Source of the DNA: Verrucomicrobium spinosum DSM 4136 = JCM 18804
GTDB lineage: Bacteria > Verrucomicrobiota > Verrucomicrobiia > Verrucomicrobiales > Verrucomicrobiaceae
DNA: 64,000 bases
Assembly (NCBI RefSeq): GCF_000172155.1
Contig: NZ_ABIZ01000001.1
Location: 2,389,105 to 2,453,104, forward strand
Reading direction: 5' to 3'
The stretch's first letter is position 1. Each line of letters opens with the position of its first letter. Shown here piece by piece: positions 16,995-64,000 of this stretch. Position numbers and translations under genes: made by a program. The notes below the pieces were generated by a model that saw only the letters and a list, made by a program, of their open reading frames with translations, did no database searches and had not been told where the DNA came from.

Positions 16995-17048
16995 CAGGTC
17001 TTTTGTCTTGAGTCTTGAAGTCTGGTGTCTCCCGCGAAGCGGGCCTCA
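16995..17048. repeat. AGAC-tract hairpin repeat, copy abutting the sulfatase stop
   Basis: Read on the minus strand: sulfatase stop, GG, hairpin CCCGCTTCGCGGG, then repeated AGAC/CAAGA purine units. The same arrangement follows the Fur-family gene (43589-43624) and two prophage genes (58367-58415, 59028-59080), and sits at the 3' end of the gene at 21517. Confidence 0.8.
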
Positions 17049-48764: not shown

Positions 48765-50507
48765 TTACTCCTGACTCGTCACCTTCGCCTCCAGTGCCTT
48801 GATCCGGGCCTCTGTTTGCTTCGCTCTGTCCAGTGCTGACTGTGCCACCTTGATCAGCCGCTGCGCATTCTGGTCCTGCGTCTGGCTCGCATCCGTGAGC
48901 AGCTTGCCCACAGCGTCCAGCTCCTTGCTGTCCGCTCCATCTCGCAGCGCTTTGGCCGCAGCTTCCAGCTGCTCCTTGGCCGCCTTGCCTGCCTCGGTAT
49001 TGTCATTCGCCGCCTTGGCCAGATCGCCCACCTTCTCCGTCAGATCCCGGTCTGCCGCCTTGTCCTGCCCTTGAGCTTCGCGCCGCGTCTTGTTGCGCTC
49101 CCGCTCCGCCACCGACTCCGCTTTCTGCTTCTCTTGATCCTGCTGCTGCTTGGCTCGCTCTTGCGCTTCGGTCACAGCCTTGCCGTCCCGGATGTCCTGG
49201 GTGCCCTCAGTGATGTCGAATTTCTTCTCGGCCGTCTCCCGGTCGCGCCGGATGGCGTCCACTTCATCGAGTTGTTTCTTAAACTCCTCTTCCAGCTGCT
49301 TGATGCGCGTGGTGGCGTCTTGAATCGCCTGCTGCCCCTTCGCCGCTTCCTCAGCCCACCCCTCCAGCTTTGGGTAAGCTTTGTCGAATTCATCCAGCCT
49401 CTGCTTTGCCTCGCGGAATTTCTCAGTGGCCGCATCCAGCGCGTCTAGCGCCTCTTGAGAGTTGGGATTGTCCCGATACGCCTCCGCCGCGGCGAGCCGC
49501 TCCCGCCCAGCTTCTCCCACCTCATTGGCCAGTGCCGGGCGCTGCCTCGCTGCCTCCTCACGGCGTTTGGCATTAGCGATCGTCTCCTCCTGCTCCCGGA
49601 TCTCCGCCTGGGTAGCACGCCCTTTGCGTATTTGCTCGCTCTCATCGCGGGCGTAGTTGTCCAGCGCCTCCTGTTGTTTCCTTGCCCGCTCTCGCTTCTC
49701 CAACTCCTGGGTCTTGCGGAGTTTCTCCTCTTCAGTCCCGCCACCCGCTTCGATCTCCGCTCGTTGCCGGTCCGCCGCAGCATCCGCCAGCTCATTACGC
49801 CTGGCTGCCTCCTGATCGCGTAGTTGACCGACTCGCTCCAGCTTCTTCGTGATGCGATCATACAGCGCATCCTGCTGCCGCAGAGCCTCATTGTGCTCCT
49901 CAGTCTGCTTGTGCAGTGCACTCACTGCATCACGCACTTTGGCAAACGACGCCGCCGCCGCGTCAGTGTCCTTCTGGAGCTGCTCCCAGTCCGGCGTGTT
50001 GAACAAGGTCTTCCCCAGCAGCGTGCCCACATCCCACGCCGCCTGGAAGACAGTGAGCAGATCCAGGTTCATGGTCCCCAGGATCTCATTGGCATCGGTG
50101 CCGCCTTTCGTGATGCCCTTCAGTGACTCCACCGCCTCACTGCCCCCATTCACGATTGAGCCCAGCGCACCGGCCATCGTGTCCCCCAGTCCGCCCGCAG
50201 CTTCTTCGACGGACTCTGTAGCCTCCGCCAGTGCGGGCATCTCACTGCTCAGGGGTCCCACGAACTCCGCCAGCGAGTCCCCCATGCTGGTCCCCACCGC
50301 CTCCACCGCGGTACTGACTTCTTTGGCGGCCTCTTCCGCCTCCTTCATTCGGGCCAGGAACTCCGGCCCGAAGAACTGCTTTTCCTCCTCGCTCAGCGCA
50401 TCGGCAGACGCTGCCACCTCCTCCACCGCCTTTGCCGCCTCCTGGATGGGGGCAGTGTCAGCGGTGGAGGTGATCCTGATGTTGATCTCTTTGTCAGCGT
50501 CTGCCAT
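48765..50507 (-). CDS. Prophage coiled-coil tape measure protein
   Basis: 580 residues, nearly all helical. Hydrophobic patches G-S-M-G... and the A-W-D-V-G-T-L-L-G region near 165-175 lie within otherwise charged heptad repeats (Glu, Lys, Arg, Gln, Ala), and much of 190-560 is a long coiled coil. Tape measures set tail length and help genome entry; with 580 residues the tail would be short. It lies between the fibre-like gene and the hub gene, as expected. An alternative is a structural scaffold, but position favours tape measure. Confidence 0.75.
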   Translation of the reverse strand: MADADKEINIRITSTADTAPIQEAAKAVEEVAASADALSEEEKQFFGPEFLARMKEAEEAAKEVSTAVEAVGTSMGDSLAEFVGPLSSEMPALAEATESVEEAAGGLGDTMAGALGSIVNGGSEAVESLKGITKGGTDANEILGTMNLDLLTVFQAAWDVGTLLGKTLFNTPDWEQLQKDTDAAAASFAKVRDAVSALHKQTEEHNEALRQQDALYDRITKKLERVGQLRDQEAARRNELADAAADRQRAEIEAGGGTEEEKLRKTQELEKRERARKQQEALDNYARDESEQIRKGRATQAEIREQEETIANAKRREEAARQRPALANEVGEAGRERLAAAEAYRDNPNSQEALDALDAATEKFREAKQRLDEFDKAYPKLEGWAEEAAKGQQAIQDATTRIKQLEEEFKKQLDEVDAIRRDRETAEKKFDITEGTQDIRDGKAVTEAQERAKQQQDQEKQKAESVAERERNKTRREAQGQDKAADRDLTEKVGDLAKAANDNTEAGKAAKEQLEAAAKALRDGADSKELDAVGKLLTDASQTQDQNAQRLIKVAQSALDRAKQTEARIKALEAKVTSQE

Positions 50508-50514
50508 GGCCGTA

Positions 50515-52122
50515 TTAAGAAGCCTTGAATGAAGTGATGCTCAGCCCCACCACATCGGCAGAGCCAGCACTGGGCACCACAGACACATCGCCAAAGATGG
50601 CGATGCGATCACCCGAGCGGGGCGTGACGTAGATGCCCAGCGGCATCATGCAGGAGCCGAGTGATCGGGTCTGCGAGCTCGTGATCTGTGTGGGCAGCGT
50701 CAGAGACGGGCCGCCCACATCTGCCGCCGTGTTGTTGATGCGGCGGAATCTGAACGTCATTGTCCGCGAGCTGGAGAATGTGGCAGCGGCGAACTGGAGA
50801 TTGACGTTTCCGAACAACAGATAGACGCCCGGCATCGGCAGCTCGACATAGCCACCGAGTTGGGTGGATGTGGCAGTGAGAGTGTCGGTACTGGTGCGGT
50901 TGTATTGCACGATGCCTGTCTTCGCGACTGTGTTCCAGTTGAGGTTGTTTACAGCGAATTGGCCATTCTGTGGCCCCACTTGGGCATTGCCACTGATGGT
51001 GAGATCACCAGCATTCCCAGCCCCCGCACCACCGTTCCCACCGCCAGCCAGGTTGATGTTGGAGCTACCGATGAACATGCTCCCATTGTTAAAGCTCACG
51101 GCCTTGCCATTGGTGCCAGCATTGGACATATCTCCAACTGCTCCCATGCCATTGATACCACTGTTAAAAGTTACTGGCCCTTCCACGCTTAGGCCTGCTC
51201 CAGGGTTGGATTCAGTCAAGCTGTTGTCTGACACATCCACCGCGCCCACAGTGGCCGCACCCACCCCCTTGAGGGACACATAATGTCCCTTGGCAATGAT
51301 GTCTCCCATCTCGCCTCGTACCGACAGTTGCAAGGTATGGAGTCCTACAGGGTCCCAGTTGACTGTGAGTGATGAGAAGGTGCCCATGTTGTTGTATCCG
51401 GGCAGCAAGTCGAAGAATAGATACCTGAAGTCTTCATCCATGGTCACCGCCTCTGATGCCGCCAGCGTACGCACACGGACGGTCCGCTGCTCATAGGTGG
51501 ACGGCGCTGCAAGCAGGTCATCCAGTGCCGCTTGGATTGTCAGGTACGGCTTGCTCGGGTCACCCACGGTCCCGGTGCTGTCGTTGCCACTGGCATCCAC
51601 GACGGCCGTCAGGCTCTCCTGGGGGCTGGTGATGCCCAGCGTGGCCCGGGCCGTGGCGGCATCAGCATCATCCATGAGGGTCCGCGCAAAGGCGCTGAAG
51701 TCGGTGACAGCAGCCGCATCGGAGCCCGTGAAGTAGGGCAGCTTGTCCGCCGCCGTCGTCAGCCCGGCCAGAGCCGCCAGCGTGTTGTCCGCCGCCTGTT
51801 TCCCCGCGAGGTCGCTCACCAGATTGGACACACCACTTTGCGGCACACCCGTGATGGTATTGCTGCTGCCGCTGATCGTCTTGTTGGTCAGCGTGAGCGT
51901 GGTGCTGCCCAGCAGATCAATGATCTTCTGCACCGTTGCAGATTTCGTCACCGGCGTACCGCTCGGGTCCGTCACCGTCAGCACCAGATCCGTGGCGCTC
52001 AGGCTGCTGGCCGCTGGCAGTTCCGTGATTTTCGCGGAGGTCTGGCCCATCAGGGGAGCCGCCGCCAGCAGCATCAGCGCTGCCGTTGCAAAGGGGTTGA
52101 AACGTCCTTTCATGGATATCAT
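50515..52122 (-). CDS. Prophage fibre-like protein carrying an N-terminal signal peptide
   Basis: 535 residues from the ATG at 52122 (a GTG 13 codons upstream and an ATG three codons downstream are also possible). Residues 1-28, M-I-S-M-K-G-R-F-N-P-F-A-T-A-A-L-M-L-L-A-A-A-P-L-M-G, read as a signal peptide. Then I-T-E-L-P-A-A-S-S-L-S-A-T-D-L-V-L-T-V, the start pattern of many tail-fibre proteins, T-L-T-N-K-T-I-S-G-S-S-N-T-I-T, and A-T-A-R-A-T-L-G-I. The remainder is Ser/Thr/Gly-rich beta-structure with a G-G-G-N-G-G-A-G-A-G-N-A-G stretch. An export signal on a virion protein is odd. Confidence 0.7.
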   Translation of the reverse strand: MISMKGRFNPFATAALMLLAAAPLMGQTSAKITELPAASSLSATDLVLTVTDPSGTPVTKSATVQKIIDLLGSTTLTLTNKTISGSSNTITGVPQSGVSNLVSDLAGKQAADNTLAALAGLTTAADKLPYFTGSDAAAVTDFSAFARTLMDDADAATARATLGITSPQESLTAVVDASGNDSTGTVGDPSKPYLTIQAALDDLLAAPSTYEQRTVRVRTLAASEAVTMDEDFRYLFFDLLPGYNNMGTFSSLTVNWDPVGLHTLQLSVRGEMGDIIAKGHYVSLKGVGAATVGAVDVSDNSLTESNPGAGLSVEGPVTFNSGINGMGAVGDMSNAGTNGKAVSFNNGSMFIGSSNINLAGGGNGGAGAGNAGDLTISGNAQVGPQNGQFAVNNLNWNTVAKTGIVQYNRTSTDTLTATSTQLGGYVELPMPGVYLLFGNVNLQFAAATFSSSRTMTFRFRRINNTAADVGGPSLTLPTQITSSQTRSLGSCMMPLGIYVTPRSGDRIAIFGDVSVVPSAGSADVVGLSITSFKAS

Positions 52123-52187
52123 TTTGTTGGGTTGGGTTTGCTCGTTGCTTGCCTGCGTCACTCCGCGTCCCCCCGACCAAATTGCTC

Positions 52188-52595
52188 CTACAGTTGCGGC
52201 TCCTGCCTCACCACGCTGCCGCCCTCCGTGCTCAGCGGCACGCCGCCCTCCGTCGTCACCGCATGGATGTTGCCCACCCGTGTGCCCGTCAGCAGCCCGC
52301 GGATCTCATAAGTCAGATGCAGCGCCAGGCCATCCAGCTCTCCCGTGGTCAGGGTACTGATGGCGTGCAGCTCCAGTTCATCGTAGTCACCGTTGGGAGC
52401 CTCCCTCCGGAGCGTCACCATATCGGTGGACGGATACAGCTCCCGCGCCTCCTCCAGCCATGCCGCCAGCCCTTGGAAGGTGGTGAATGCTTTCACCGCT
52501 GGCACGATCAGGTGCCACGGTTGCCCAGAGGCTGGCAGGGCCAGCGCCTGACTCCAGTCATCATGGATGATTGTTCCGCCTATTGAGATGATCAT
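52188..52595 (-). CDS. Small prophage tail-region protein with TEGG tail
   Basis: 135 residues. N-terminal M-I-I-S-I-G-G-T-I-I-H-D-D-W and a strand-rich body with E-L-E-L-H-A-I-S-T-L-T. The C-terminus V-T-T-E-G-G-V-P-L-S-T-E-G-G-S-V-V repeats a T-E-G-G unit, much like the E-E-G-D-G-L-L-T-E-D-G-S of the next gene. The two probably share a domain and a virion role. No known family recognised. Confidence 0.65.
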   Translation of the reverse strand: MIISIGGTIIHDDWSQALALPASGQPWHLIVPAVKAFTTFQGLAAWLEEARELYPSTDMVTLRREAPNGDYDELELHAISTLTTGELDGLALHLTYEIRGLLTGTRVGNIHAVTTEGGVPLSTEGGSVVRQEPQL

Positions 52596-52631
52596 GTTTC
52601 GATCTGGGTTGTGTGTTGTTGTTTCCTTGCC

Positions 52632-53126
52632 TCACTCTATCATCAGCGTGCTGCCATCTTCCGTCAGCAGCCCGTCCCCCTCCTCAGTCAGCACCCTTCC
52701 CATCAGTGCCAGCGGGGCACCTGTGATCGCACCGCCTTTCAACGCATACGTGATGCGTGAGCACTGCTCATAAGTCCCCGTCTGCACATCCGTGATGGTG
52801 GCAGAGGCGATCACCATTTCCCCCTCGTGCCCCATCACCTCTATGATCAGATCCACGCCACCCGTGGGCAGGCTGGCCAGTGTGTGCAGCCGGAATGCCT
52901 CAGCCGCCTGGGGAGACTCGTGCAGCCGCATCACGGTCCAGCTGATGGAGTGCATGCGGTTGCCACGGTCAAAGGTCTTGCCTCCCGCAGCCCTCACATA
53001 CTTCACCTCCTGCACTTCACCTGTCTGATCGATCTTGGGAAGCCCACCTTCAAACCAAGCATCATAGTCCACCAGCACGGTGGCACCCAGCGTGATCTTC
53101 AGGGGGCTTTCCCGGACCTCAATCAT
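52632..53126 (-). CDS. Small prophage tail-region protein with TEDG tail
   Basis: 164 residues. Beta-rich body with V-R-E-S-P-L-K-I-T-L-G-A-T-V-L-V and a conserved-looking I-S-W-T-V-M-R-L-H-E-S. The last 22 residues hold the repeated unit L-T-E-E-G-D-G-L-L-T-E-D-G-S-T-L-M-I-E, similar to the tail of the next gene downstream. Lies between tail tube and the 135-residue relative, so a tail or neck role is likely, exact role unknown. Confidence 0.65.
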   Translation of the reverse strand: MIEVRESPLKITLGATVLVDYDAWFEGGLPKIDQTGEVQEVKYVRAAGGKTFDRGNRMHSISWTVMRLHESPQAAEAFRLHTLASLPTGGVDLIIEVMGHEGEMVIASATITDVQTGTYEQCSRITYALKGGAITGAPLALMGRVLTEEGDGLLTEDGSTLMIE

Positions 53127-53221
53127 ATCAGTGTTTTAGGGCAAGCGCTCCGCCTGCTGTCTCAGTGTTGGAGTACCGCCTTTAGGCGGAATCAGTCAGA
53201 TGCTCTGCCAGGACTGCCGCC
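53127..53221. repeat. Two hairpin repeat types between phage genes
   Basis: TAGGGCAAGCGCTCCGCCTG (53137-53156) and GGAGTACCGCCTTTAGGCGG (53170-53189) lie next to each other. The second is part of a 30-base stretch (53162-53191) identical to 60858-60887. Confidence 0.85.
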
Positions 53222-53785
53222 TTAGTTGGCAGTGAGGGCATTGAGGTTGTAGGTGTTCAACTCGCTGTCCAGCACCTCCCAGGTGACGTCATACGCGTAC
53301 TCCTTCTCCGCGCTCTTGCCTTCCGTCACCATCATCTCCACCCAGAGGAACATGGTGTTGATCAGCGTGTCCGTCTGATCACGTTGCTCAATCTTCAGCC
53401 ATCCCGTGATGGGCTTGCTCTGCTTCAGCGGCTGTTGAGCCGTGCCAATGGTGATCGCACCCGCCAGTAGGAAGATGGACTCCATCACCAGTTGGTTGGC
53501 ATCTTGCAGCTTGGCCTTGAGCGTCAGCTCCTGACTCAGCGGAATGCTCTTACGGCGGCGGTAGGTACCACGGCCAACCGGTGGAGCCTTCAACACGAGA
53601 GCGTCCGCCTTGTTGGTGACACCAAAGGTTTCCACAGCTCCCATGGCCTCATACAGCTCAGAGTCAGTGGCAGGTTTGTAATCCACACCCACGGTGTGCT
53701 CCACCATGGTGATTTCTTCCGTTTCCCCTTCACGGGCGAACCATACATGGCTCCCCAGAATGACAGTACGATTTACAAGTGACAT
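53222..53785 (-). CDS. Prophage tail tube protein (probable)
   Basis: 187 residues with no signal. A beta-sandwich pattern with V-N-R-T-V-I-L-G-S-H-V-W-F, repeated Thr/Lys strands and Y-D-V-T-W-E-V-L near the end, which fits a tail tube monomer. A conserved-looking K-A-P-P-V-G-R-G-T-Y-R-R-R-K-S-I-P lies in the middle. Position between tail terminator and the small tail genes agrees. Its leader carries the GCCTGCCACCCCGC motif shared with the capsid and decoration genes. Confidence 0.6.
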   Translation of the reverse strand: MSLVNRTVILGSHVWFAREGETEEITMVEHTVGVDYKPATDSELYEAMGAVETFGVTNKADALVLKAPPVGRGTYRRRKSIPLSQELTLKAKLQDANQLVMESIFLLAGAITIGTAQQPLKQSKPITGWLKIEQRDQTDTLINTMFLWVEMMVTEGKSAEKEYAYDVTWEVLDSELNTYNLNALTAN

Positions 53786-53810
53786 AGCTTCTAAGTGGGT
53801 TGTTGGGTGA

Positions 53811-53827
53811 ATTGCCTGCCACCCCGC
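53811..53827 (-). promoter_or_regulatory. Shared leader motif upstream of the tail tube gene
   Basis: ATTGCCTGCCACCCCGC on the plus strand, 26 bases before the start codon. The same block stands before the capsid (60239-60255) and decoration (60831-60845) genes. Its role is unknown; it could be a promoter part, an RNA structure or a start-region enhancer. Confidence 0.6.
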
Positions 53828-53863
53828 GGTCCCGCCAAAAAGCTGTTCTGTCTATACTCCTGT

Positions 53864-53892
53864 TTACCTGTAGGGCAAGCGCTCCGCTTGCC
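53864..53892. repeat. TAGGGCAAGCG hairpin repeat abutting the tail terminator stop
   Basis: TTACCTGTAGGGCAAGCGCT then CCGCTTGCC; the next base starts the reversed stop codon of the 53893-54603 gene. Matches at 53134-53157 and 55511-55539. Confidence 0.8.
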
Positions 53893-54603
53893 TCAGCTCA
53901 AGATCCTTTCAAGCACATCACTCGGCGCATTGCCTCCCTTATACGCCGCCGCCCGCAGCACTGCCCCGGGCACACTTGCAAAGGCCGCCTCATACTCCAC
54001 GGCCTCCGCATTGGATGGCCCGGGAAAGCTGCCATCGAGCGTGTACCAGATCTCCGCGCTGGCCGCGGCACAAGTCAGCGTGATGTCGCCACCGCCCACC
54101 GTCATCACCGGCACCGCAACCTGCTGCGCATTGTCTGCACCATGGTAGCAATAGACCGTGACATCATACGCCACCTTGCCCACGATATTGGCCGCCCTCA
54201 CCGCGTTGCTCTCATCACCGCGGAACTCATGCTTCCGGCCCGCATCCCATCCATGCAGATACATCAGAGTATCTAGCGCGAGCTGCTCAGCGGGCACATG
54301 CGTTCCCTCGGCCCCCTCATTGACCAGCGGGTTCTCAATGATCCGCACCGTCAACTCAATCCTAAGAAAGCCCTTCACCTTGTCCACTGGCACCCCGGCT
54401 GAGGGCATCAGCACCATGGCCGCAATGCCTCCCTTGCCGTTCTTCTTGAGCATCCCCGCCAGGGCATTGTTGATGTTTGTCTGTATCAGTGTGGCCGCCC
54501 CGGCATCACGCGGGCGGACCACCGTGATGGGCACATACTGGTATTGCCCCAGCGTCCCCAGGTACCCACCCACATCCAGTTGCAGTTGTTGCAGAATGTT
54601 CAT
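53893..54603 (-). CDS. Prophage tail terminator-like protein with chitobiase-like C-terminal domain
   Basis: 236 residues. The first 160 resemble tail terminators (Mu gp37/DUF1834-like): M-N-I-L-Q-Q-L-Q, a V-P-I-T-V-V-R-P strand, F-L-R-I-E-L-T-V-R and Y-L-H-G-W. The last 75 are the short beta-domain seen at the end of chitobiases and many surface proteins: I-W-Y-T-L-D-G-S-F-P-G-P, V-P-G-A-V-L-R-A-A-A-Y-K. The extra domain probably sticks out of the virion and could bind cell-surface sugar. Overlaps the previous small gene by four bases. Confidence 0.7.
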   Translation of the reverse strand: MNILQQLQLDVGGYLGTLGQYQYVPITVVRPRDAGAATLIQTNINNALAGMLKKNGKGGIAAMVLMPSAGVPVDKVKGFLRIELTVRIIENPLVNEGAEGTHVPAEQLALDTLMYLHGWDAGRKHEFRGDESNAVRAANIVGKVAYDVTVYCYHGADNAQQVAVPVMTVGGGDITLTCAAASAEIWYTLDGSFPGPSNAEAVEYEAAFASVPGAVLRAAAYKGGNAPSDVLERILS

Positions 54604-54791
54604 CGTTTCGTGTGCTCGTAAATGTGCGGTTGCCCAAAGTCTAGGCGTGCGTCTGCAATAGGGTGCCGTGGATTGAGTGATCCGTTCTTGATCGCTTCAT
54701 CTATGGCCTTCATCACCGCATCAGCGGCCCGCAGCCTCAGTTCATACCGCTTCAATTTCTGTGCATCTGTTAGCGTTTCGTTAGTGTCCAT
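54600..54791 (-). CDS. Small helical prophage protein
   Basis: 63 residues, M-D-T-N-E-T-L-T-D-A-Q-K-L-K-R-Y-E-L-R-L-R, mostly helical and charged, ending in Y-E-H-T-K-R. It overlaps the start of the next gene by four bases and starts 13 after the gpG-like gene, so it fits the packed operon. The first codons fall in a repeated TTAGTG block (54770-54800) also found at 62374-62404, so the start may be recent. No family recognised. Confidence 0.55.
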   Translation of the reverse strand: MDTNETLTDAQKLKRYELRLRAADAVMKAIDEAIKNGSLNPRHPIADARLDFGQPHIYEHTKR

Positions 54792-54800
54792 TAGCGGTTC
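54770..54800. repeat. TTAGTG dispersed repeat overlapping a gene start, copy 1
   Basis: Identical in 26 of 31 positions to 62374-62404. Both lie at the start or leader of a phage gene. Confidence 0.65.
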
Positions 54801-54804
54801 CTCC

Positions 54805-55458
54805 TCATTCCGCCGCTGTTGTCTCCATCATCTCACTCATGAAGCTCTCCGCCCCACGTTCCGCCGCCGCTGCATAATCATCATCCGTCGGCAGAATGGT
54901 CTTGTCCTCCTTGAGGTTCACCTCTTCCCTCAGCCAGTAATAGACCTCGGTCTTACGCTCTTTGCCCTTCCCCGTCACCATCGCCAGGGCCTTGGCTCCA
55001 GAGGCAAAGGGGATGAACTGGAGCAGGGGGAACTCACCCGCCCGCCGACCATAAGCCACCGCCGCCGCGGGGATCGTCAGATACCGTGAGTTGATCGCCA
55101 CGATGTTCACTGCCCCAAAGGCTGGCGCGAACGCCTCCCGGCTCCCCACCGCAGACCCGCCCACCGACTTGGAGAGGTTGCTGATCGCACCCTCCCCGGT
55201 CGGGATCACCACCTCCGCACACGTCTCATCATACCAGCTCTCCACCGCTCTCGACTTGTTCTGGAAGTAGTAGGTGGGAGTGGCACCCAAACGGCTCGCC
55301 GTCTTGTGCTCACTCTTCACATTGATCAAGTGGTTGGCGGTCAGAACCTCCGCCTCACCGGCTATGTGCTTGTTCAGCTGGGTGGGATCCTCCAGCTTTG
55401 GCAGCAGCGCCGCCAGCAGTGGCGTCGCTTCATTGGTGTACGTCGCGACGATCTTCAT
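54805..55458 (-). CDS. Prophage virion morphogenesis protein (Mu gpG / tail completion-like)
   Basis: 217 residues. The early segment A-L-L-P-K-L-E-D-P-T-Q-L-N-K-H-I-A-G and K-T-A-S-R-L-G-A-T-P-T-Y-Y-F match the general pattern of gpG-type neck proteins, in which this A-S-R-L-G part often appears. V-E-S-W-Y-D and T-I-P-A-A-A-V-A-Y-G-R-R form the later body. Such proteins complete the head or join head and tail. Starts within the last four bases of the gpF-like gene. Confidence 0.65.
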   Translation of the reverse strand: MKIVATYTNEATPLLAALLPKLEDPTQLNKHIAGEAEVLTANHLINVKSEHKTASRLGATPTYYFQNKSRAVESWYDETCAEVVIPTGEGAISNLSKSVGGSAVGSREAFAPAFGAVNIVAINSRYLTIPAAAVAYGRRAGEFPLLQFIPFASGAKALAMVTGKGKERKTEVYYWLREEVNLKEDKTILPTDDDYAAAAERGAESFMSEMMETTAAE

Positions 55459-56615
55459 GCTGCATCCTCCATCCCATCCAGCACCGCCAGCAGATCCACC
55501 CGCCTTGCATTCACCTGTAGGGCGACCGCTCCGGTTGCCACCTCATCCAGCACCGCCAGCAGGCCGCGCCTCATCGTTGGAGTTCCGCCTTCAGGCGGGT
55601 CAACGGCATTGATCACGGACAGCATCATCTCCCGCGCATTGCTCGCGATCTCGCGCTTCACCTGGTTGCCCAGTTCACCCGCCTCCCGGTCCGTCAGCTT
55701 GCCCGGCGTCGCCTTCAGCTTGGCAATCAACGCCGCCTTGAAGTCAGCGGGCATCCCCCGGGTGCTGAACACCGGCTCGGGGATCTCCACCTTTGGCGGG
55801 CTCTTCTGCGTTTTCGTTGACTCCTCTTCCTCACCCGTCTCAGTCTCACCACTTTTTACTTTTGACTCTTCGCTTTTTACTCCGCCGCTTGCCGCCAGCC
55901 ACTCCGCCCGGGGCACCTCCCGCCAGCCCATCCCGCTGGTGAATGCAAACGGTGGATGATCCACATCCAAGGCATCGGGGAAGAGATCCCCATCACCCAG
56001 GGCCTTCCACACGGGATCACTCTTCGCCGCCATCATCAGCGTCTTGGCGCCCACGCTCACCGGCTGACCGCCCGCCTTGGTCCAGCGTTCCGCCCATCCC
56101 ATGGAGCCGCTGTCAGGCGATCCACGCTCTTTCTTGCGGGGGCTGACCCTCACCAATTCCCAGGCTGGAAACTGATACACACGATCCATGCCGCGGGCCT
56201 TCTGCCCGGCTCCACGCATCAGCCCCACTTGCGTATCAAGGATCAGGTTCAGCCGCTTGTCACTGCTCAGGTCCTGCAGGCTCCCCGGCTCCGCTGGGGG
56301 AATGCCAAGCGCCTCATCACCGGCGAATCCCGTCTCAGGGTCATACAGCAGCCGCGTCAGCAGCCCCTTGAGGAAGATCCTCAGCGCTCCACGATCACTC
56401 TCATACCCACCTTTCAACTCCCTTTCCGCCGCCTCACGGATGCCGTTGAGATACACGGCATTCGCGGTCCGGGCGGAGAACACCGACCGATCCCGCAGCG
56501 CCTTGGCAAACTCCCGGCGCTGCGCCGCTGATCCCAGGGCACTGGGCAGCAGCCCACGGCTCCGCGAGCGGCGGTAAGCCTCGGGCGGGTCAGAGGGTGG
56601 AAAGAGTGCGGCCAT
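55455..56615 (-). CDS. Prophage head morphogenesis protein (Mu gpF-like) with in-frame repeat insertions
   Basis: 386 residues from the ATG at 56615 (M-A-A-L-F-P-P-S-D-P-P-E-A-Y); the frame upstream is open but overlaps the zinc-ribbon gene. The core has L-K-G-L-L-T-R-L-L and D-K-R-L-N-L-I-L-D-T-Q-V-G and P-A-W-E-L-V-R, typical of minor head proteins. The C-terminus contains D-P-P-E-G-G-T-P-T and T-G-A-V-A-L-Q-V-N-A, encoded by two hairpin repeats that elsewhere lie outside genes, and L-L-A-V-L-D occurs twice around them. It therefore seems lengthened by insertion. Confidence 0.7.
   Translation of the reverse strand: MAALFPPSDPPEAYRRSRSRGLLPSALGSAAQRREFAKALRDRSVFSARTANAVYLNGIREAAERELKGGYESDRGALRIFLKGLLTRLLYDPETGFAGDEALGIPPAEPGSLQDLSSDKRLNLILDTQVGLMRGAGQKARGMDRVYQFPAWELVRVSPRKKERGSPDSGSMGWAERWTKAGGQPVSVGAKTLMMAAKSDPVWKALGDGDLFPDALDVDHPPFAFTSGMGWREVPRAEWLAASGGVKSEESKVKSGETETGEEEESTKTQKSPPKVEIPEPVFSTRGMPADFKAALIAKLKATPGKLTDREAGELGNQVKREIASNAREMMLSVINAVDPPEGGTPTMRRGLLAVLDEVATGAVALQVNARRVDLLAVLDGMEDAA
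55511..55600. repeat. Two hairpin repeats inside the gpF-like gene
   Basis: TCACCTGTAGGGCGACCGCT at 55511-55530 (TAGGGCAAGCG family) and GTTGGAGTTCCGCCTTCAGG at 55576-55595 (GGAGTACCGCC family). Both keep the reading frame open. Confidence 0.8.
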
Positions 56616-56620
56616 CGTTG

Positions 56621-56845
56621 CTACCTCTTTTTCAGTGGCACCACCCTTGCCGCGCATTGGTCGGAGTTGGTCTCCAGCTCCTCTATCTTGCAGCCGTAGG
56701 GTTGCAGCAAAAGGTTCAAGGCCGTGAAGCTTGGGGAGGCTTTCCAGTCCCACCCAACGTATTGGCCTGGTCCTGGGGCACCACACTCCCGGCAGAAGTT
56801 GTCCTCCACCGACACATCACATTGGCATTTATAGCAAGACTCCAT
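56621..56845 (-). CDS. Small prophage zinc-ribbon protein
   Basis: 74 residues from the ATG at 56845, which overlaps the TGA of the hydrolase gene in T-G-A-T-G, so the two are translationally coupled. C-Y-K-C and C-R-E-C form a zinc ribbon in the first 26 residues. The rest (G-W-D-W-K-A-S-P-S-F-T-A-L-N-L-L-L) looks like a small folded domain for which I have no name. The protein could regulate or bind nucleic acid. Confidence 0.65.
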   Translation of the reverse strand: MESCYKCQCDVSVEDNFCRECGAPGPGQYVGWDWKASPSFTALNLLLQPYGCKIEELETNSDQCAARVVPLKKR

Positions 56846-57483
56846 CACTCCATTCCTCCATTCTTTTGTTGTAGCAACGAACTCTTCACCAGCATGCCGT
56901 CCACGAACCGCCACATGCTCCCATTAAGCGCCGCCTTTCCGAACCAGTCGCCATGCCCATACCCCGGCTCAGTGATCACCTCCGGAGCCCGCCGCGCATT
57001 CACCGGCCCCGTCTTCCCCAGGGCACCATAGCCCAGCAGTCTGCCCAGTTGCGTCTTGGCCAGGGCAAGAGCCCAGTCCTTGCCCGCCACATACACACAC
57101 ACCCGGCCAATCGCCGCCGGATATTTGTTGAGCCCATTGGCGTCGAAGTCCGCCTCACAGGCGGCACTCACCAGATGCAGCTCCTCAATCCTCGGCCAGT
57201 CCAGCGAGGCCAGCGCATCAAGGATCACATCGCAACCATTGGAGTGGCCCACCAGCACGATGTGCCAGCCCGCGTAAAACGTCAGCGTCTTGGCCAGCTT
57301 CTCCGCACGTTTCCGCTGCCCCAGCATGCGCCCAATCGGTCCCACAAGATATTCAATCTTCTCCGCCCTGAAAGGGGTGTGCAAGTGCGTCCATGTGACC
57401 GCACGGCCATTCCAATTATCGGAAGCGCCCGGCATCGTGAGGATGCCATTCACAAAGATGAAGACGATGCGAGCAGGGTTCAT
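56845..57483 (-). CDS. Prophage-encoded alpha/beta hydrolase
   Basis: 212 residues. F-I-F-V-N-G-I-L-T near the N-terminus is the oxyanion strand, V-G-H-S-N-G at 78-83 the nucleophile elbow (Ser81), with A-G-K-D-W and G-Y-G-H-G-D-W able to give the acid and histidine. No signal or membrane segment, so it works in the cytoplasm or is packed in the virion. Such a hydrolase is not part of a standard head operon and is probably cargo. It sits between a DNA methyltransferase and a zinc ribbon. Substrate unknown. Confidence 0.75.
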   Translation of the reverse strand: MNPARIVFIFVNGILTMPGASDNWNGRAVTWTHLHTPFRAEKIEYLVGPIGRMLGQRKRAEKLAKTLTFYAGWHIVLVGHSNGCDVILDALASLDWPRIEELHLVSAACEADFDANGLNKYPAAIGRVCVYVAGKDWALALAKTQLGRLLGYGALGKTGPVNARRAPEVITEPGYGHGDWFGKAALNGSMWRFVDGMLVKSSLLQQKNGGME

Positions 57484-57487
57484 GGTG

Positions 57488-58366
57488 TTACCTCATCCTT
57501 TGAATGAGCTTTCTACCGATCCACTCAGCAACTTGCGGAACCACGGCGTTACCCGCCGCGTGAGCCGATGCAAAGTCGGTGTCATCCAGTCCGAGGGGAA
57601 TCCCGCAACGCTCAGACTCTCTGGCCCGCTCAACCATCTTATTCCATCCGTCTTGCTCAGCGACGAGTAGCTGACCACCAAGGGTGATTCGGCAGGCAGT
57701 GTTTGCGGCCAGTAGAGTATAGCCAGGCGCGCTGTGCGCGGCCCGTGCGACTTCGCCCGCAGCGAACGCGCTAGGAATGCCCTCCACTGGGCTGGCGTCA
57801 AATAGCAGCTCAGCGGGGGGGGGCTGTCCAAGGCCGCCGACCATGAAAAGGCGGCGACGTCTCTGGGGAACGCCGAAGCCTGCAGCATCCAGCACCCGGA
57901 AGCATCCCAAGTACCCGCGGTGGGCAAGGTCTTGGATGATCGTCGCAAGGTCCGCATGATCGTTGACCCAGAGCAACGCCTCGACGTTTTCAAGCACAAC
58001 CCATCTGGGCCGAATCGCATCGATGATTCGTAGGGCCTCCCGGTATAGACCGCTTCGCTCACCCTTGAGCCCTGGGCGTCCTTGCTTGCTCGACGTTCCG
58101 GCAGCACTGATGTCTTGACACGGGAACCCGGCGGTAAGGACATCAACCGGTGAAAGGTTGTGCGCGCCGCACTCACGGACGTCTTCAAACTGTCGGGAAT
58201 GGGGAAATCGGTCAGCAAGCACAGCCCGGTTGATGGGGTTGATTTCGACGCTCCAAGAGCATTGGAATCCAGCCCGTTCAAACCCGAGTTCAAAGCCACC
58301 GATCCCCGCGAAAAGGGAGCCGTGCGTTGGCTTCGTTTTGTGGCCTGCATCTTTTTCATAGGTCAT
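57488..58366 (-). CDS. Prophage DNA (cytosine-C5) methyltransferase
   Basis: 292 residues. All main motifs are present: F-A-G-I-G-G at 19-24 (I), G-F-P-C-Q-D at 80-85 (IV, catalytic Cys), E-N-V at 126-128 (VI), Q-R-R-R-R-L-F at 168-174 (VIII) and G-N-A-V-V-P near 270 (X). The variable target-recognition part between VIII and X is short (about 90 residues), so one short target site is likely. No restriction partner is nearby, so it is an orphan enzyme that may protect phage DNA. A nearly equal frame on the same strand one base over is a shadow. Confidence 0.93.
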   Translation of the reverse strand: MTYEKDAGHKTKPTHGSLFAGIGGFELGFERAGFQCSWSVEINPINRAVLADRFPHSRQFEDVRECGAHNLSPVDVLTAGFPCQDISAAGTSSKQGRPGLKGERSGLYREALRIIDAIRPRWVVLENVEALLWVNDHADLATIIQDLAHRGYLGCFRVLDAAGFGVPQRRRRLFMVGGLGQPPPAELLFDASPVEGIPSAFAAGEVARAAHSAPGYTLLAANTACRITLGGQLLVAEQDGWNKMVERARESERCGIPLGLDDTDFASAHAAGNAVVPQVAEWIGRKLIQRMR

Positions 58367-58415
58367 GTCTTGCGTCTTGTGTCTTCACGTCTTCTGTCTC
58401 CCGCGCAGCGGGTCA
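58367..58415 (-). repeat. AGAC-tract hairpin repeat abutting the DUF1320-like stop
   Basis: CTTGTGTCTTCACGTCTTCT then GTCTCCCGCGCAGCGGGTCA; the final TCA is the reversed stop codon at 58413-58415. Same layout as in the host copies. Confidence 0.8.
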
Positions 58416-58871
58416 AAGCCCGCTCAACTTCCTCCGCGTGGCCTGCCTCTTGTTCCCTGACACCTGCTCAAACACGGGCGTGGCAATCACTTCCTCACTG
58501 GGCGTGGCCGGTTGCTCAATCACCGCGTCACACTTCGCGATGCTGTCCAGGTACTTCAGCGCATCATTCTTGCGCTTCTCCCGGGTCTCATAGAGAGACG
58601 GATCATTGCCCGGCAACCGGGTCAACATCTCCCAGGCCAGCATAGCCTTGGCCGCACTCAAGGTCTCATCAGGGATGGTCATCCCCGCGCCCATCGTGTT
58701 GCTCTTGCAGGCCGCCACCCGGCTCCGGATCTGGCGCACCACCGCCTCAATCAATCCCGGCACCGGGTCAGCCTGCCCATCAGCAAGCGCCGCCGTGCGG
58801 AATGCCTCCACCTCCGGACCGGAGAGGGCCTCTTTCAGATGGATCTCTGTCAGTTCAATCCACATGAGCAA
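58413..58871 (-). CDS. Prophage gp36-like (DUF1320) head-completion protein
   Basis: 152 residues. N-terminal I-E-L-T-E-I-H-L-K-E-A-L-S-G-P-E-V-E and helical repeats A-V-V-R-Q-I-R-S-R-V-A follow the DUF1320 pattern; A-A-K-A-M-L-A-W-E-M-L-T-R-L and T-R-E-K-R-K-N-D-A-L-K-Y-L-D are the conserved helices of such adaptors. It probably joins the head vertex and tail. A Lys/Arg-rich tail may be extra. Its start overlaps the stop of the 55-residue gene by 17 bases. Confidence 0.75.
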   Translation of the reverse strand: MLMWIELTEIHLKEALSGPEVEAFRTAALADGQADPVPGLIEAVVRQIRSRVAACKSNTMGAGMTIPDETLSAAKAMLAWEMLTRLPGNDPSLYETREKRKNDALKYLDSIAKCDAVIEQPATPSEEVIATPVFEQVSGNKRQATRRKLSGL

Positions 58872-59022
58872 TCACGGGTTCAAGTTGTTTCAAGCGCTCT
58901 TCAACCAGGGCAGCCAGGGCATCCAGCACGTCACGCTCTTCATCCGCTGGCACACCTGCCAGCCGTGCGCGCACTTGCCCCATCAGCTCCGCTGCCAGTG
59001 TTTCACGTTCCTCTTCATTCAT
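58855..59022 (-). CDS. Very small helical prophage protein
   Basis: 55 residues, M-N-E-E-E-R-E-T-L-A-A-E-L-M-G-Q-V-R-A-R-L, all helical and acidic, with a leucine-zipper-like spacing in its second half (A-L-V-E-E-R-L-K-Q-L). Too short for most automatic calls, but it overlaps the next gene by 17 bases and begins just after an AGAC-tract repeat, as real genes here do. Role unknown; a small assembly factor is possible. Confidence 0.55.
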   Translation of the reverse strand: MNEEERETLAAELMGQVRARLAGVPADEERDVLDALAALVEERLKQLEPVIAHVD

Positions 59023-59027
59023 GGCCT

Positions 59028-59080
59028 CAGGTCTTGAGTCTTGTGTCTTCTAGTCTGGCGTCTCCCGCGTAGCGGGCCGG
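59028..59080 (-). repeat. AGAC-tract hairpin repeat downstream of the capsid gene
   Basis: CAGGTCTTGAGTCTTGTGTC, then TTCTAGTCTGGCG and hairpin CCCGCGTAGCGGG. This copy does not touch a stop codon; it lies 86 bases after the capsid stop. Confidence 0.75.
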
Positions 59081-59085
59081 TGTCG

Positions 59086-59163
59086 CCTGAACCGGGTGTG
59101 GAGGGTTGCCCCTCCACACCACGATTTTTCAGGAACCCACCCACTTCACTCAGCCGGTTCAGG
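59086..59163. terminator. Nested stem-loops just after the major capsid gene
   Basis: Outer stem CCTGAACCGG (59086-59095) with CCGGTTCAGG (59154-59163), inner hairpin GTGTGGAGGG (59096-59105) with CCCTCCACAC (59110-59119). Both stems are perfect. The order suggests RNA protection or a transcription end for the highly expressed capsid message; the T-run lies on the plus-strand side only. Confidence 0.6.
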
Positions 59164-59165
59164 GC

Positions 59166-60209
59166 TTAGCTTTGCGAAGCCGTGAGAGTCCGGATGCCCA
59201 GGGTGGAGGTGATCTTGAGCAGCTCATAGTGCTCCACCACGATCTCCCACAGCTTGGTGGAGATCTGCCGGGAGTACACGCGGAGCGGGCCACCACCCTC
59301 CACCGGAGAGGTGAAGCGCTTGATGTTGCTGGCGTCTTCCGCATCCAGCCCGGCCAGCGCGTTGAAGAGCACCACCTTGTTGCTCACAATCTCGCTCTTG
59401 GCAGCGGCCGCACTCTGGTACCGCTCACGCGACACCTTCACCTGTTCAACGCCGAAGTAGGAGGCGAGACGGTTTTCATCCCGCCCCAGGGCCATCGTTG
59501 AGCCCGCGTTTTCTTGGCTCTCATAGGCCGCAACGCGGTAATCATAGCTCGTGTCGCCATAACCCACGCGATTGGGCCGGATGCCGCTGACGTTCGTCGC
59601 GGCGATCAAGGCAGCCCGCACATCAGCATCAGGCTGGCTTGTGTTGCCCCAGGTCTTGTTGGCGTTGGTGGCAGCAGCCACCAGCAGAGCCAGGGAGCGA
59701 CGCAGGGCGTTGCGGCGGATGCGGCGGATCAGCTTCTCTGTGTACTTGGTTTCCCAGTTCTGCTTGTCCGCCACCTCATCCAGATCCACCACCACGCGGA
59801 GCCCCCGGTTCTGGGTCTTGCCTTCCACTTCGCTGGCGGTGTACTCCACCGTCTTGAAGTCGCCACGCATGGCGCGGAGGTCATCCAGTTCGGAGAGCCA
59901 CTCTTCAGGGTTGCTGAAGGTGCGGTAGCTGAACCGGCGCGGCACCTCACAAGCCGGGGCGAAGAACTCCAACGTCTCTTCAATGTTCGTATTGTCCTTG
60001 AACCCTACCGCGAACGCGGTCAACGGTTCAGAGAGGAACGCCTCATTGAACCTGGAGGCATTCACGGAGGTGATCAGCTCCGGGCGGTCGCTGCCGTCAT
60101 CCGCCGGGTCAAAGGACTTGTTCTCCAGTCCGCCCAGCAGTTGCAGGCGGCCGTTGTACTGCTTTTGCAGGCGGGTGATCTCCGCGCTGTTGATAGTGAT
60201 CTTCTTCAT
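59166..60209 (-). CDS. Prophage major capsid protein (probable)
   Basis: 347 residues, the right size for a capsid monomer of the HK97 fold. It follows the protease/scaffold and decoration genes, the usual place. Strand-rich segments T-V-E-Y-T-A-S-E-V-E-G-K-T and N-R-G-L-R-V-V-V-D-L-D-E-V are followed by a helix-rich middle (Y-T-E-K-L-I-R-R-I-R-R-N-A-L-R-R-S-L-A-L-L-V-A-A-A-T-N-A) as in spine helices. The assignment rests on size, order and pattern. Nested hairpins follow the stop codon. Its leader has the GCCTGCCACCCCGC motif. Confidence 0.78.
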   Translation of the reverse strand: MKKITINSAEITRLQKQYNGRLQLLGGLENKSFDPADDGSDRPELITSVNASRFNEAFLSEPLTAFAVGFKDNTNIEETLEFFAPACEVPRRFSYRTFSNPEEWLSELDDLRAMRGDFKTVEYTASEVEGKTQNRGLRVVVDLDEVADKQNWETKYTEKLIRRIRRNALRRSLALLVAAATNANKTWGNTSQPDADVRAALIAATNVSGIRPNRVGYGDTSYDYRVAAYESQENAGSTMALGRDENRLASYFGVEQVKVSRERYQSAAAAKSEIVSNKVVLFNALAGLDAEDASNIKRFTSPVEGGGPLRVYSRQISTKLWEIVVEHYELLKITSTLGIRTLTASQS

Positions 60210-60238
60210 AGTCGTTGTCTCGATCTTGGGTTTGTGGA

Positions 60239-60255
60239 TTGCCTGCCACCCCGCC
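60239..60255 (-). promoter_or_regulatory. Shared leader motif upstream of the capsid gene
   Basis: TTGCCTGCCACCCCGCC on the plus strand, 30 bases before the capsid start, matching the leaders of the tail tube and decoration genes, each with a GGGTT(T)GT just upstream on the plus strand. Confidence 0.6.
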
Positions 60256-60301
60256 GACCTGTCCCGCGTTACTATGATTGGGTGAGTCCGATGCCCTGGG
60301 C

Positions 60302-60802
60302 TTAGGTCACCACCAGCTTGATGGGCACGCAGCTTTGCACCTCCACCAGATCGCCATCAGCGCCAGAGGTAGATTGCAGGATGCCGACCTGCCAGTAAGT
60401 GCCTGCGCCCGCTGGCGTGTCTTGGATCTTGCCACCCGCCGCCGTGTACACGGGCACGCCCACCGTGGCCAGTGCTTCACTGGCCGTCATGAGCTTGGTG
60501 GGCCCAGTGCCCAGCAGGCCCACGGCAATCAGCTCCTCCGCCGCCGTGGTCTCATCCAGCGTCGTGGCATAGGGCATGTCATTGGCACCGTTGACGGCAA
60601 AGTGATCGTTATCACTGCCCCTCTTGACGAGGAGATAACGCGCAATCGCCGCGTCAGAGTACCGGCTTAGTGCCTTGTCATGGGTGCCCTCCGCGATGTT
60701 CACCGCCATCATCAGGCCCGCCAGGTGGGCCTTGCGGCGGATCAGGGAAAACGCCAGCGCCAGCACGAGGGCCAGCGCAAAGAGAAGAATGAATGTCGTC
60801 AT
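60302..60802 (-). CDS. Prophage capsid decoration protein (DUF2190-like) with odd N-terminus
   Basis: 166 residues. The second half has the DUF2190 pattern: K-R-G-S-D-N-D-H, A-E-E-L-I-A-V-G-L-L-G, V-P-V-Y-T-A-A-G-G-K-I-Q-D and G-T-Y-W-Q-V-G-I-L-Q, ending G-D-L-V-E-V-Q-S-C-V-P-I. DUF2190 proteins coat the outside of capsids. The first 22 residues, M-T-T-F-I-L-L-F-A-L-A-L-V-L-A-L-A, are a membrane-helix sequence, not expected there. A start at Met31 (60712) would avoid it, so the true start is open. Confidence 0.75.
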   Translation of the reverse strand: MTTFILLFALALVLALAFSLIRRKAHLAGLMMAVNIAEGTHDKALSRYSDAAIARYLLVKRGSDNDHFAVNGANDMPYATTLDETTAAEELIAVGLLGTGPTKLMTASEALATVGVPVYTAAGGKIQDTPAGAGTYWQVGILQSTSGADGDLVEVQSCVPIKLVVT

Positions 60803-60830
60803 AAGATTCAGTGGGTTTGTCGTAGTTGGT

Positions 60831-60845
60831 GCCTGCCACCCCGCC
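60831..60845 (-). promoter_or_regulatory. Shared leader motif upstream of the decoration gene
   Basis: GCCTGCCACCCCGCC on the plus strand, 29 bases before the decoration start. Third copy of this leader block. Confidence 0.6.
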
Positions 60846-60857
60846 GCCCCGCCTGAA

Positions 60858-60887
60858 TCAGTGTTGGAGTACCGCCTTTAGGCGGAA
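60858..60887 (-). repeat. GGAGTACCGCC hairpin repeat containing a stop codon
   Basis: Identical over 30 bases to 53162-53191. On the minus strand the hairpin CCGCC-TAAA-GGCGG has the TAA stop of the 60878-61114 gene in its loop. Confidence 0.85.
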
Positions 60888-61114
60888 GGTTCCGCCGTTT
60901 TGGTTTTCTTGCCGCCTTTGGCCTCGCCGCCAGCCTCATCGGTTTTCGGCTCTTTGGCTTTCGGTGCTTTCGCGCCTTCTTCCTCGGCCAGGGCGGCGTC
61001 ATGTTCCGCCTGGGCATTGAGCACGGCAACCGCCTGCTCACGGGAGAGCCCTCCGCCGCTCTCTTTGATCTTCGCGTTGATCGCGGTTTCATCGGGCGGG
61101 GTGATCTTGGGCAT
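60878..61114 (-). CDS. Small prophage protein with Lys/Ala-rich tail
   Basis: 78 residues. M-P-K-I-T-P-P-D-E-T-A-I-N-A-K-I and L-S-R-E-Q-A-V-A-V-L-N-A-Q-A-E-H-D make up the first half, the second half is low-complexity (Lys, Ala, Glu, Pro). Between protease/scaffold and decoration, so it might be a small head-assembly protein. Last residues and the stop come from the GGAGTACCGCC repeat. Confidence 0.6.
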   Translation of the reverse strand: MPKITPPDETAINAKIKESGGGLSREQAVAVLNAQAEHDAALAEEEGAKAPKAKEPKTDEAGGEAKGGKKTKTAEPSA

Positions 61115-61197
61115 GTTCCGGTTCCTCTTGAGGGGTTGGGTTCTTGATCGGGTTCGTTGAAACTTTGCTTGCGTATCTCGTCAGGGGACTCTTGGCC

Positions 61198-62367
61198 TCA
61201 GCCTTTCGGCTTGGAGTTCATGGCGGCGATCAGCCCTTTATACTTCGGATCACGCTTCACCTGGTTGAAGGCTTCAGTGTAGGTGAGCTTCGGGTTCTTG
61301 GCCTGGGCATCAGCCACCGCCGTGTTGAGCGCGATCCGGCGGGATTGCGCATCCGAGACATCCACCTTCGCGCCACCAATCTCCAGCGCCTTGTTGTTGA
61401 AGGCGGTTTCCAGTTTGTCCAGCTTCTCAGCCTCAGCCTTGAAGGCGGCACCACCGTTGGCGATCAGCTTGCCTTCCCACTCGGCGCGTTGTGCCTCCGT
61501 GATCTTGCCGCCGTTCACCGCCATATCCAGCACCACACCGGCGTTGGTCTTGAGCGTCTCCATGGCTTTGGAGTTGGCGGTTGCCAGGGCACCCTCCATC
61601 TCTTTCTTCTTGGCCTCCAGCTCAGCAGTCTTGGCCGCTTCTGCCGTCAGGTCCGTATTCAGTTTGGTGGCTTTGTCGGCCCCTTCTTTCATGGCCGTGA
61701 TCTTCGCAAAGATCTCATCGTCCGTTGCCGTGGCCGGGTCCAGGCCCAGCAGTGCGCACAGTTTCTCTTTCATCGCTTTTTCGTCGGGTTGTTTGGGTTG
61801 TGTGTCAGAGTCCTGGGAGTTGGTCCAGGGCCTCACAGTTTCAATGTTGGGGTCATTCACCATGCCCACATGATCCAGATGCACGGGGAAAATCTTGCAG
61901 GAACCGGGCGCGGGCTTGGGGTGCATCCAGCCAGGGGAGGGGAAGACCATATACCCTTCCCTGAGGTTCTCTTTGCCCAGGCTGTTCCACTCCACCTTGC
62001 CATAGAGACCGTCATCTCTGGCCTCCAGTTTCATCACCTTGCCGATCCGGCGTGGATCTGAGAAGCGCTCCGGCATCTGGGCGGGATGTCCCATGTACAC
62101 CGGCACACCGCGGAACATGCGGCCCAGTTGGTCCACCGTGGAGTTGAACTCCGCCACCATCTTCCCGGCTTCATCCTTGCCGAAGACCTGCACCATCTCA
62201 CCGTTGTTGGTGGGGTACTGGCCGTAAGGTGAGATCTGCATCCAGTCATCACCCTCTGCCACCGCCGCCCCGTTGTAGGCCAGACTCATCTCGCGGCTTG
62301 CCTTGCCTGCATGGTTCACAGTCATAACCAAGCCTCTGAGGGCCTTCTTCTTGGAAATCAGTCTCAT
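61198..62367 (-). CDS. Prophage protease/scaffold protein (Mu gpI-like)
   Basis: 389 residues. The N-terminal half shows W-M-Q-I-S-P-Y-G-Q-Y-P and V-P-V-Y-M-G-H-P-A-Q, R-I-G-K-V-M-K-L-E-A-R-D-D-G-L-Y and M-V-F-P-S-P-G-W, the typical layout of Mu I-type prohead proteases. The second half (from about 200) is a charged coiled coil (L-T-A-E-A-A-K-T-A-E-L-E-A-K-K) that should scaffold the capsid. The protease trims the scaffold during maturation. The upstream flank holds a TTAGTG repeat copy. Confidence 0.85.
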   Translation of the reverse strand: MRLISKKKALRGLVMTVNHAGKASREMSLAYNGAAVAEGDDWMQISPYGQYPTNNGEMVQVFGKDEAGKMVAEFNSTVDQLGRMFRGVPVYMGHPAQMPERFSDPRRIGKVMKLEARDDGLYGKVEWNSLGKENLREGYMVFPSPGWMHPKPAPGSCKIFPVHLDHVGMVNDPNIETVRPWTNSQDSDTQPKQPDEKAMKEKLCALLGLDPATATDDEIFAKITAMKEGADKATKLNTDLTAEAAKTAELEAKKKEMEGALATANSKAMETLKTNAGVVLDMAVNGGKITEAQRAEWEGKLIANGGAAFKAEAEKLDKLETAFNNKALEIGGAKVDVSDAQSRRIALNTAVADAQAKNPKLTYTEAFNQVKRDPKYKGLIAAMNSKPKG

Positions 62368-62373
62368 AAAAAA

Positions 62374-62404
62374 TTAGTGTTCCGTTAGTGTCAATCAGTG
62401 GTTC
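62374..62404. repeat. TTAGTG dispersed repeat in a phage gene leader, copy 2
   Basis: Matches 54770-54800 in 26 of 31 positions; directly upstream of the protease/scaffold start. Confidence 0.65.
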
Positions 62405-62422
62405 AAAATCACTCCCACCCCC

Positions 62423-63970: not shown

Positions 63971-64000
63971 GCGGGTTTGCTGAAAATGGTGCAAACGGCG

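Follow-up and report, generated by a model that had tools for sequence, protein, structure and literature searches.

Host repeats within the reading frame of a Mu-like prophage gene in Verrucomicrobium spinosum

Intragenic GTAG REPs were published in 2013 and, in the available text of that study, were most numerous in a verrucomicrobium, O. terrae (PMC3733652). They resemble the case presented here in that GTAG palindromes lie inside coding frames, sometimes twice per gene, and in that REP ends supply the stop codons of flanking genes. They differ from it in that our case is a prophage gene with two REP-like families and, in addition, an unrelated repeat; the word 'phage' is absent from the main text of PMC3733652. 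A second described system is that of the REPtrons and their TnpA-REP enzymes, HuH-family proteins with a relationship to IS200/IS605 (PMC8266576). As here, short near-perfect palindromes follow a tetranucleotide and occur as inverted pairs and tandem copies. The Rickettsia palindromic elements, as cited in PMC3733652, are likewise short palindromic repeats that are in frame in protein-coding genes, but they belong to other sequence families in another host, and in our genome repeats inside genes are exceptional.

The window analysed here is a stretch of 64,000 nucleotides, corresponding to positions 2389105-2453104 of the single 8.22-Mb contig of Verrucomicrobium spinosum DSM 4136. Five-digit coordinates below refer to this window and longer ones to the genome. 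The minus-strand gene 55455-56615 contains two hairpin repeats, units A and B, and a further repeat, K. We estimate a probability of roughly three in four that A and B are copies from two REP-like families of the host and K a copy from a third family of host repeats, and that this Mu-like prophage gene became longer by capturing all three in frame within its loosely constrained C-terminal tail. As intragenic REPs have already been published, the gene is a clear new case of a described phenomenon. What is unusual is that one gene holds three repeat families, and that one of the repeat copies, K, is free of the stops found in that frame in the 23 other copies of its family. A literature search for REP together with Verrucomicrobium spinosum found nothing.

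Units A and B as genome-wide repeats

Unit A (TGTAGGGCGACCGCTCCGGTTGCC, plus strand, 55516-55539) is a GTAG-headed hairpin that, read on the minus strand, encodes part of VATGAVALQVNA. Unit B (GTTGGAGTTCCGCCTTCAGGCGG, plus strand, 55576-55598) is a GGAG-headed hairpin and encodes DPPEGGTPT. An earlier note, made from the letters of the window, had placed two hairpin repeats in frame in this gene, and the coordinates and peptides that it gave were correct. Similarity to other parts of the genome extends beyond the hairpins themselves: the 31 bp at unit A (55515-55545) are identical to sequences at 7043716 and 7044023, and the similarity at unit B reaches over 55564-55609, with 87% identity to 1570742-1570786. 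Searches with the exact patterns retrieved 85 genomic copies of A and 65 of B, against 0 for each pattern read backwards. The copies are arranged as singles, inverted pairs and arrays with a period of roughly 142-146 bp, and the variants of the B stem preserve pairing. Judged by these properties of the sequence, both units look like host REP elements. Unit A fits the description of a GTAG-type REP, that is, a palindrome of about 20-40 bp after GTAG with many, mostly intergenic copies: it combines the GTAG head with a stem, and 83 of its 85 copies are intergenic. GGAG is a known variant of the REP head, and unit B works like a REP despite lacking GTAG, as its 65 copies, paired stems and inverted pairs illustrate. 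The features of A and B match those of REPs in the available text of PMC3733652 and PMC8266576, except that the head of B differs from that of the published GTAG family (PMC3733652); the term GGAG is absent from the available text of PMC3733652 and PMC2817692. Rfam had no match within window positions 50000-64000.

The B pattern was also counted in 57 genomes, including our own. Beside the 65 copies in our genome, there were 31 and 42 in two genomes of the same genus, 13 in one other member of the family and 1 in one genome of the order, while the other 52, including a third, incomplete genome of the same genus, contained 0.

The inside and outside counts that follow rest on gene calls by our own simple predictor. 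The stretches around all 150 exact copies of A and B span 639,469 bases and contain 557 genes predicted by a simple hexamer score. Exact copies of A were intergenic in 83 cases, overlapped the 3' end of a predicted gene in one and lay wholly inside a predicted gene in one; for B these counts were 61, three and one. The sole exact A and the sole exact B wholly within predicted genes are both in gene 55455-56615. A relaxed search of the fetched DNA (at most 4 substitutions, plain Hamming counts) found 264 A-like and 105 B-like sites and added one intragenic copy, a B-like sequence with 2 substitutions in gene 2457896-2458489. As this degenerate B sits in another gene of the same prophage, gene 55455-56615 is not strictly alone in holding an intragenic B. 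The degenerate copy is 47 bp from the predicted start and may reflect an error in the start codon. In the two same-genus genomes with B copies (G001 and G003), 68 of the 73 copies were examined; 67 were intergenic, one was at a 3' end and none was wholly inside a gene.

The earlier note had described three further A/B sites in the window as lying outside genes. This holds for an intergenic site of the same prophage where B comes after a degenerate A (plus strand, 53135-53189) and for a copy of A that immediately follows the stop codon of gene 53893-54603 (plus strand, 53869-53892), but not for a copy of B (plus strand, 60863-60885) that overlaps the 3' end of the predicted minus-strand gene 60878-61114 and provides its stop. 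More generally, REPs behave as gene-end elements in three related prophages of this genome, namely the window prophage and two others (2430000-2470000, 6062000-6085000 and 7319000-7343500; limits set by hand). All 12 exact REPs in these prophages are antisense to genes, and ten overlap a stop codon or are at most 58 bp away from it. The remaining two are the pair in gene 55455-56615. Outside the three prophages, REPs between co-directional genes (n = 35) were antisense in 14 cases and sense in 21.

Short internal matches to intergenic DNA occurred in 20 of the 557 predicted genes, with the most (109) in gene 55455-56615; others with such matches include 2752632-2753864, 822776-824437, 4894028-4895467 and 2457896-2458489.

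The gene, its relatives and repeat K

The gene is read from 56615 to 55455 and encodes 386 amino acids, probably a MuF-like minor head protein, although the fold resemblance is weak. Its surroundings are those of a Mu-like prophage, with a Mu-type portal and a head protease. Profile searches matched Portal_Mu (E 1.8e-53) and Mu-like_Pro (E 1.7e-18) near the gene, and a nearby major head protein matched phrog_1005 (E 6.3e-10); as profile-based predictions, these three identities are firm. At E 0.001 the product itself was without a match in Pfam or PHROGs, the Phage Mu gpF / head morphogenesis family included, and at E 5 nothing informative was found. In a fold search with a 45-sequence model, the best viral match had an E of 0.006, and 23 of the 50 viral fold matches listed were annotated as head morphogenesis, minor capsid, MuF-like or capsid morphogenesis, which suggests a weak MuF-like resemblance; a fold search against PDB gave nothing useful (best E 2.1). 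The label 'gpF-like' in the earlier note stands on less firm ground than its coordinates and peptides. A structure predicted from the single sequence had a mean pLDDT of 38.6, and the 45-sequence model has a confident core at about residues 11-240 and a weak tail, in which the unit B peptide is found at a break between two helices and the repeat K peptide in a low-confidence stretch. The query protein for the searches and for both models carried one extra residue ahead of the start methionine.

The stop codon of the gene shares ATGA with the ATG of the next gene (minus strand, 54805-55458), and a similar downstream gene is also present behind the homologue in three other loci (L011, L017 and L018). 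As the frame is free of stop codons from the conserved core to 55457, the repeats are part of any translation of gene 55455-56615, and the predicted translation contains whole REPs within a continuing coding frame. The peptides that span the repeats in the tail are GVKSEESK, DPPEGGTPT and ATGAVALQVNAR.

Relatives were gathered from the same genome (two paralogues), the family, the order and viral contigs. This provided 101 homologue loci, of which 99 had a readable end, including the window gene; the 98 others represent 92 distinct proteins. The coding parts of these 98 loci are all free of A and B, as the earlier note had predicted for homologues in related prophages, and none of the loci contains A at up to 5 or K at up to 8 substitutions. 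The earlier note had also named an observation that would contradict it, namely homologues from unrelated phages in which different codons specify these residues, and this was not seen among these relatives. The only B-like match among the 98 loci, with 4 substitutions, is just before the start codon in a metagenome contig (L167). That hairpin upstream of a homologous phage gene is REP-like, with a GTAG head and a stem that has covaried on both sides. Measured from SGMGW to the end, the tail is 160 amino acids long in the window gene; among the 31 closest others, 28 have tails of 66-141 amino acids and the remaining three, with extra sequence, tails of 285-339. No near-identical prophage with an empty site was found, and the relatives used have at most 53% identity; tblastn of the protein against phage records returned no match, and a scan of genome contigs for relatives confirmed none.

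Repeat K (plus strand, 55851-55883), which is absent from the earlier note, encodes GVKSEESKVKS. A pattern composed so as to include the window copy had 24 matches in the genome at up to 2 mismatches, with 0 in the control. K was also detected without the pattern when the DNA of the gene was compared with the genome by BLAST (86% over 37 bp, E 1.7e-4). The G+C content of K is 33%, versus 64% for the gene. Only the copy in gene 55455-56615 is wholly inside a gene; 16 are intergenic and seven overlap the 3' ends of genes, all seven in antisense orientation. In the frame used by the gene, the seventh codon is a stop in 23 of the 24 copies and 20 copies contain at least two stops; the window copy has none. 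Compared with the consensus of the other copies, 7 of its 33 bases are different, and no other place inside the predicted genes is within 10 mismatches of that consensus. The sequence beyond K in the gene can still be aligned with the paralogues.

A duplication in the tail and the origin of the repeats

The tail also contains an exact 19-bp direct repeat, CATCCAGCACCGCCAGCAG, with a period of 69. Its first copy (plus strand, 55475-55493) encodes LLAVLD and its second copy (plus strand, 55544-55562) is between A and B, so that the duplication of the LLAVLD DNA on both sides of one unit, as the earlier note had it, is exact over 19 bp. It is the only exact direct repeat of at least 19 bp at a spacing of 30-150 bp in the 557 predicted genes (463,581 bp). 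Elsewhere in the prophage the starts of A and B are 29 bp (2456151/2456180) or about 32 bp (53135/53167) apart; in the gene the distance is 60 bp, as if a copied flank came to stand between the two units.

The earlier note had read this duplication as part of the gene copied upon insertion. The copy is real, and insertion of A itself, by a long target-site duplication or a copied flank, could account for a repeat that brackets A and has no equal in the 557 genes; moreover, REP dimers repeated jointly with pieces of flanking DNA have been described (PMC3733652). However, 21 bp of unrelated sequence lie between one 19-bp copy and the 31-bp A match, and the other copy overlaps that match by 2 bp, an arrangement unlike the flanks expected of a target-site duplication. 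Among the REPs examined elsewhere, no isolated one showed such a repeat of unique DNA. Furthermore, the HuH family to which TnpA-REP belongs is related to IS200/IS605, and to our knowledge elements of that type make no target duplication. We therefore consider an origin in the insertion of A unlikely and not established; the 19-bp duplication would instead stem from local copying next to the hairpins, as an event of its own. In a survey of 73 single or paired REPs, the idea that isolated REPs are generally marked by target-site duplications found no support. Ten of the 73 were straddled by a repeat of at least 12 bp, and in the nine other than the one in the gene the repeated string contained REP sequence (seven) or was flanking DNA beside REP arrays (two). 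The random control, in which 91 of 2000 positions showed a repeat of at least 12 bp, is weak and inflated by arrays.

The gene may also have come by its repeats passively, if a REP pair was first located between the two genes, behind an older stop, the usual place of REPs in this genome, and the gene later grew into it through stop loss or a frame change. The position of ten of the 12 exact REPs in the three prophages at or near a stop would fit such a history, as would the varied points at which the homologue tails end. Against it, the ATGA overlap of stop and start, present in the window gene and at the end of the frame in 61 of 99 loci, leaves no intergenic gap for repeats, and for K the downstream sequence still aligns with the paralogues. 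We regard this history as improbable, somewhat more so than a role of A in the 19-bp duplication. Far less credible is that the tail residues are ancestral coding sequence resembling the repeats by chance. It is normal for the helical tails of this family to vary, and the window copy of K has diverged from its consensus, but the 31-bp identity of A at two other places, the control counts of 0 for A, B and K, and the 98 loci without units in their coding parts refute chance resemblance for A and B.

Capture of host repeats is thus the reading that we prefer. That coding sequence grew by repeat capture, as the earlier note had proposed, is well supported by the genome-wide repetition of A and B, the homologues without them and the presence of K in the same tail. 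The genomic copies, their frames in this gene, their rarity inside other predicted genes and the lack of them in the coding parts of homologues are direct observations, and it is from the comparison with relatives at no more than 53% identity that we infer insertion of A, B and K. A and B would have arrived by REP dissemination, probably through single-strand DNA processing by a TnpA-REP (RAYT) enzyme. As the stop of the gene is fused to the start of the next, only insertions that were stop-free and of frame-keeping length would have survived. K may have become fixed as a stop-free variant, or it may have lost its stops by mutation.

Gene 55455-56615 is a small, natural illustration of how scattered repeats can add to the length of a protein. 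One testable rule that it suggests is that a gene whose stop is fused to the following start can retain an insertion only as coding sequence. A tentative and rather doubtful extension is that the C-terminal tail of a virion gene is an open landing zone in which unrelated host repeats become coding material, read-through survivors remaining where the stop is fused to the next start and the stops of K having been purged. Such capture could then repeatedly supply phage proteins of repeat-rich hosts with new tail sequence.

Transposase genes and other repeats

Like the genomes that contain REPtrons, in which a transposase gene is flanked by its cognate REPs (PMC8266576), our genome holds Y1_Tnp genes, with 39 Y1_Tnp matches, some of which are pieces of one frame. 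Unlike in REPtrons, no A or B (at most 4 substitutions) was found within about 1.5 kb of the Y1_Tnp genes at the 30 loci scanned, and neither unit is tied to any transposase among these loci.

Other repeats do accompany such genes. The Y1_Tnp genes 5502059-5502391 and 589881-590117 each have GTAG hairpins of a distinct kind on both sides, in inverted orientation, and the genome therefore probably contains several independent REP systems. A further family, C, consists of GTCTT-rich runs followed by GTCTCCCGCGNAGCGGG and is present in the window at 17031-17043, 58363-58412 and 59027-59076. As two inverted copies of C flank the Y1_Tnp gene 1373783-1374121, C may be the REP of that gene. The fetched 639 kb contain 29 hairpin-type matches to C, most of which are not wholly inside predicted genes, and the last 40-47 bp of window gene 21568-22824 (genome 2410672-2411928) match intergenic repeats of the C type.
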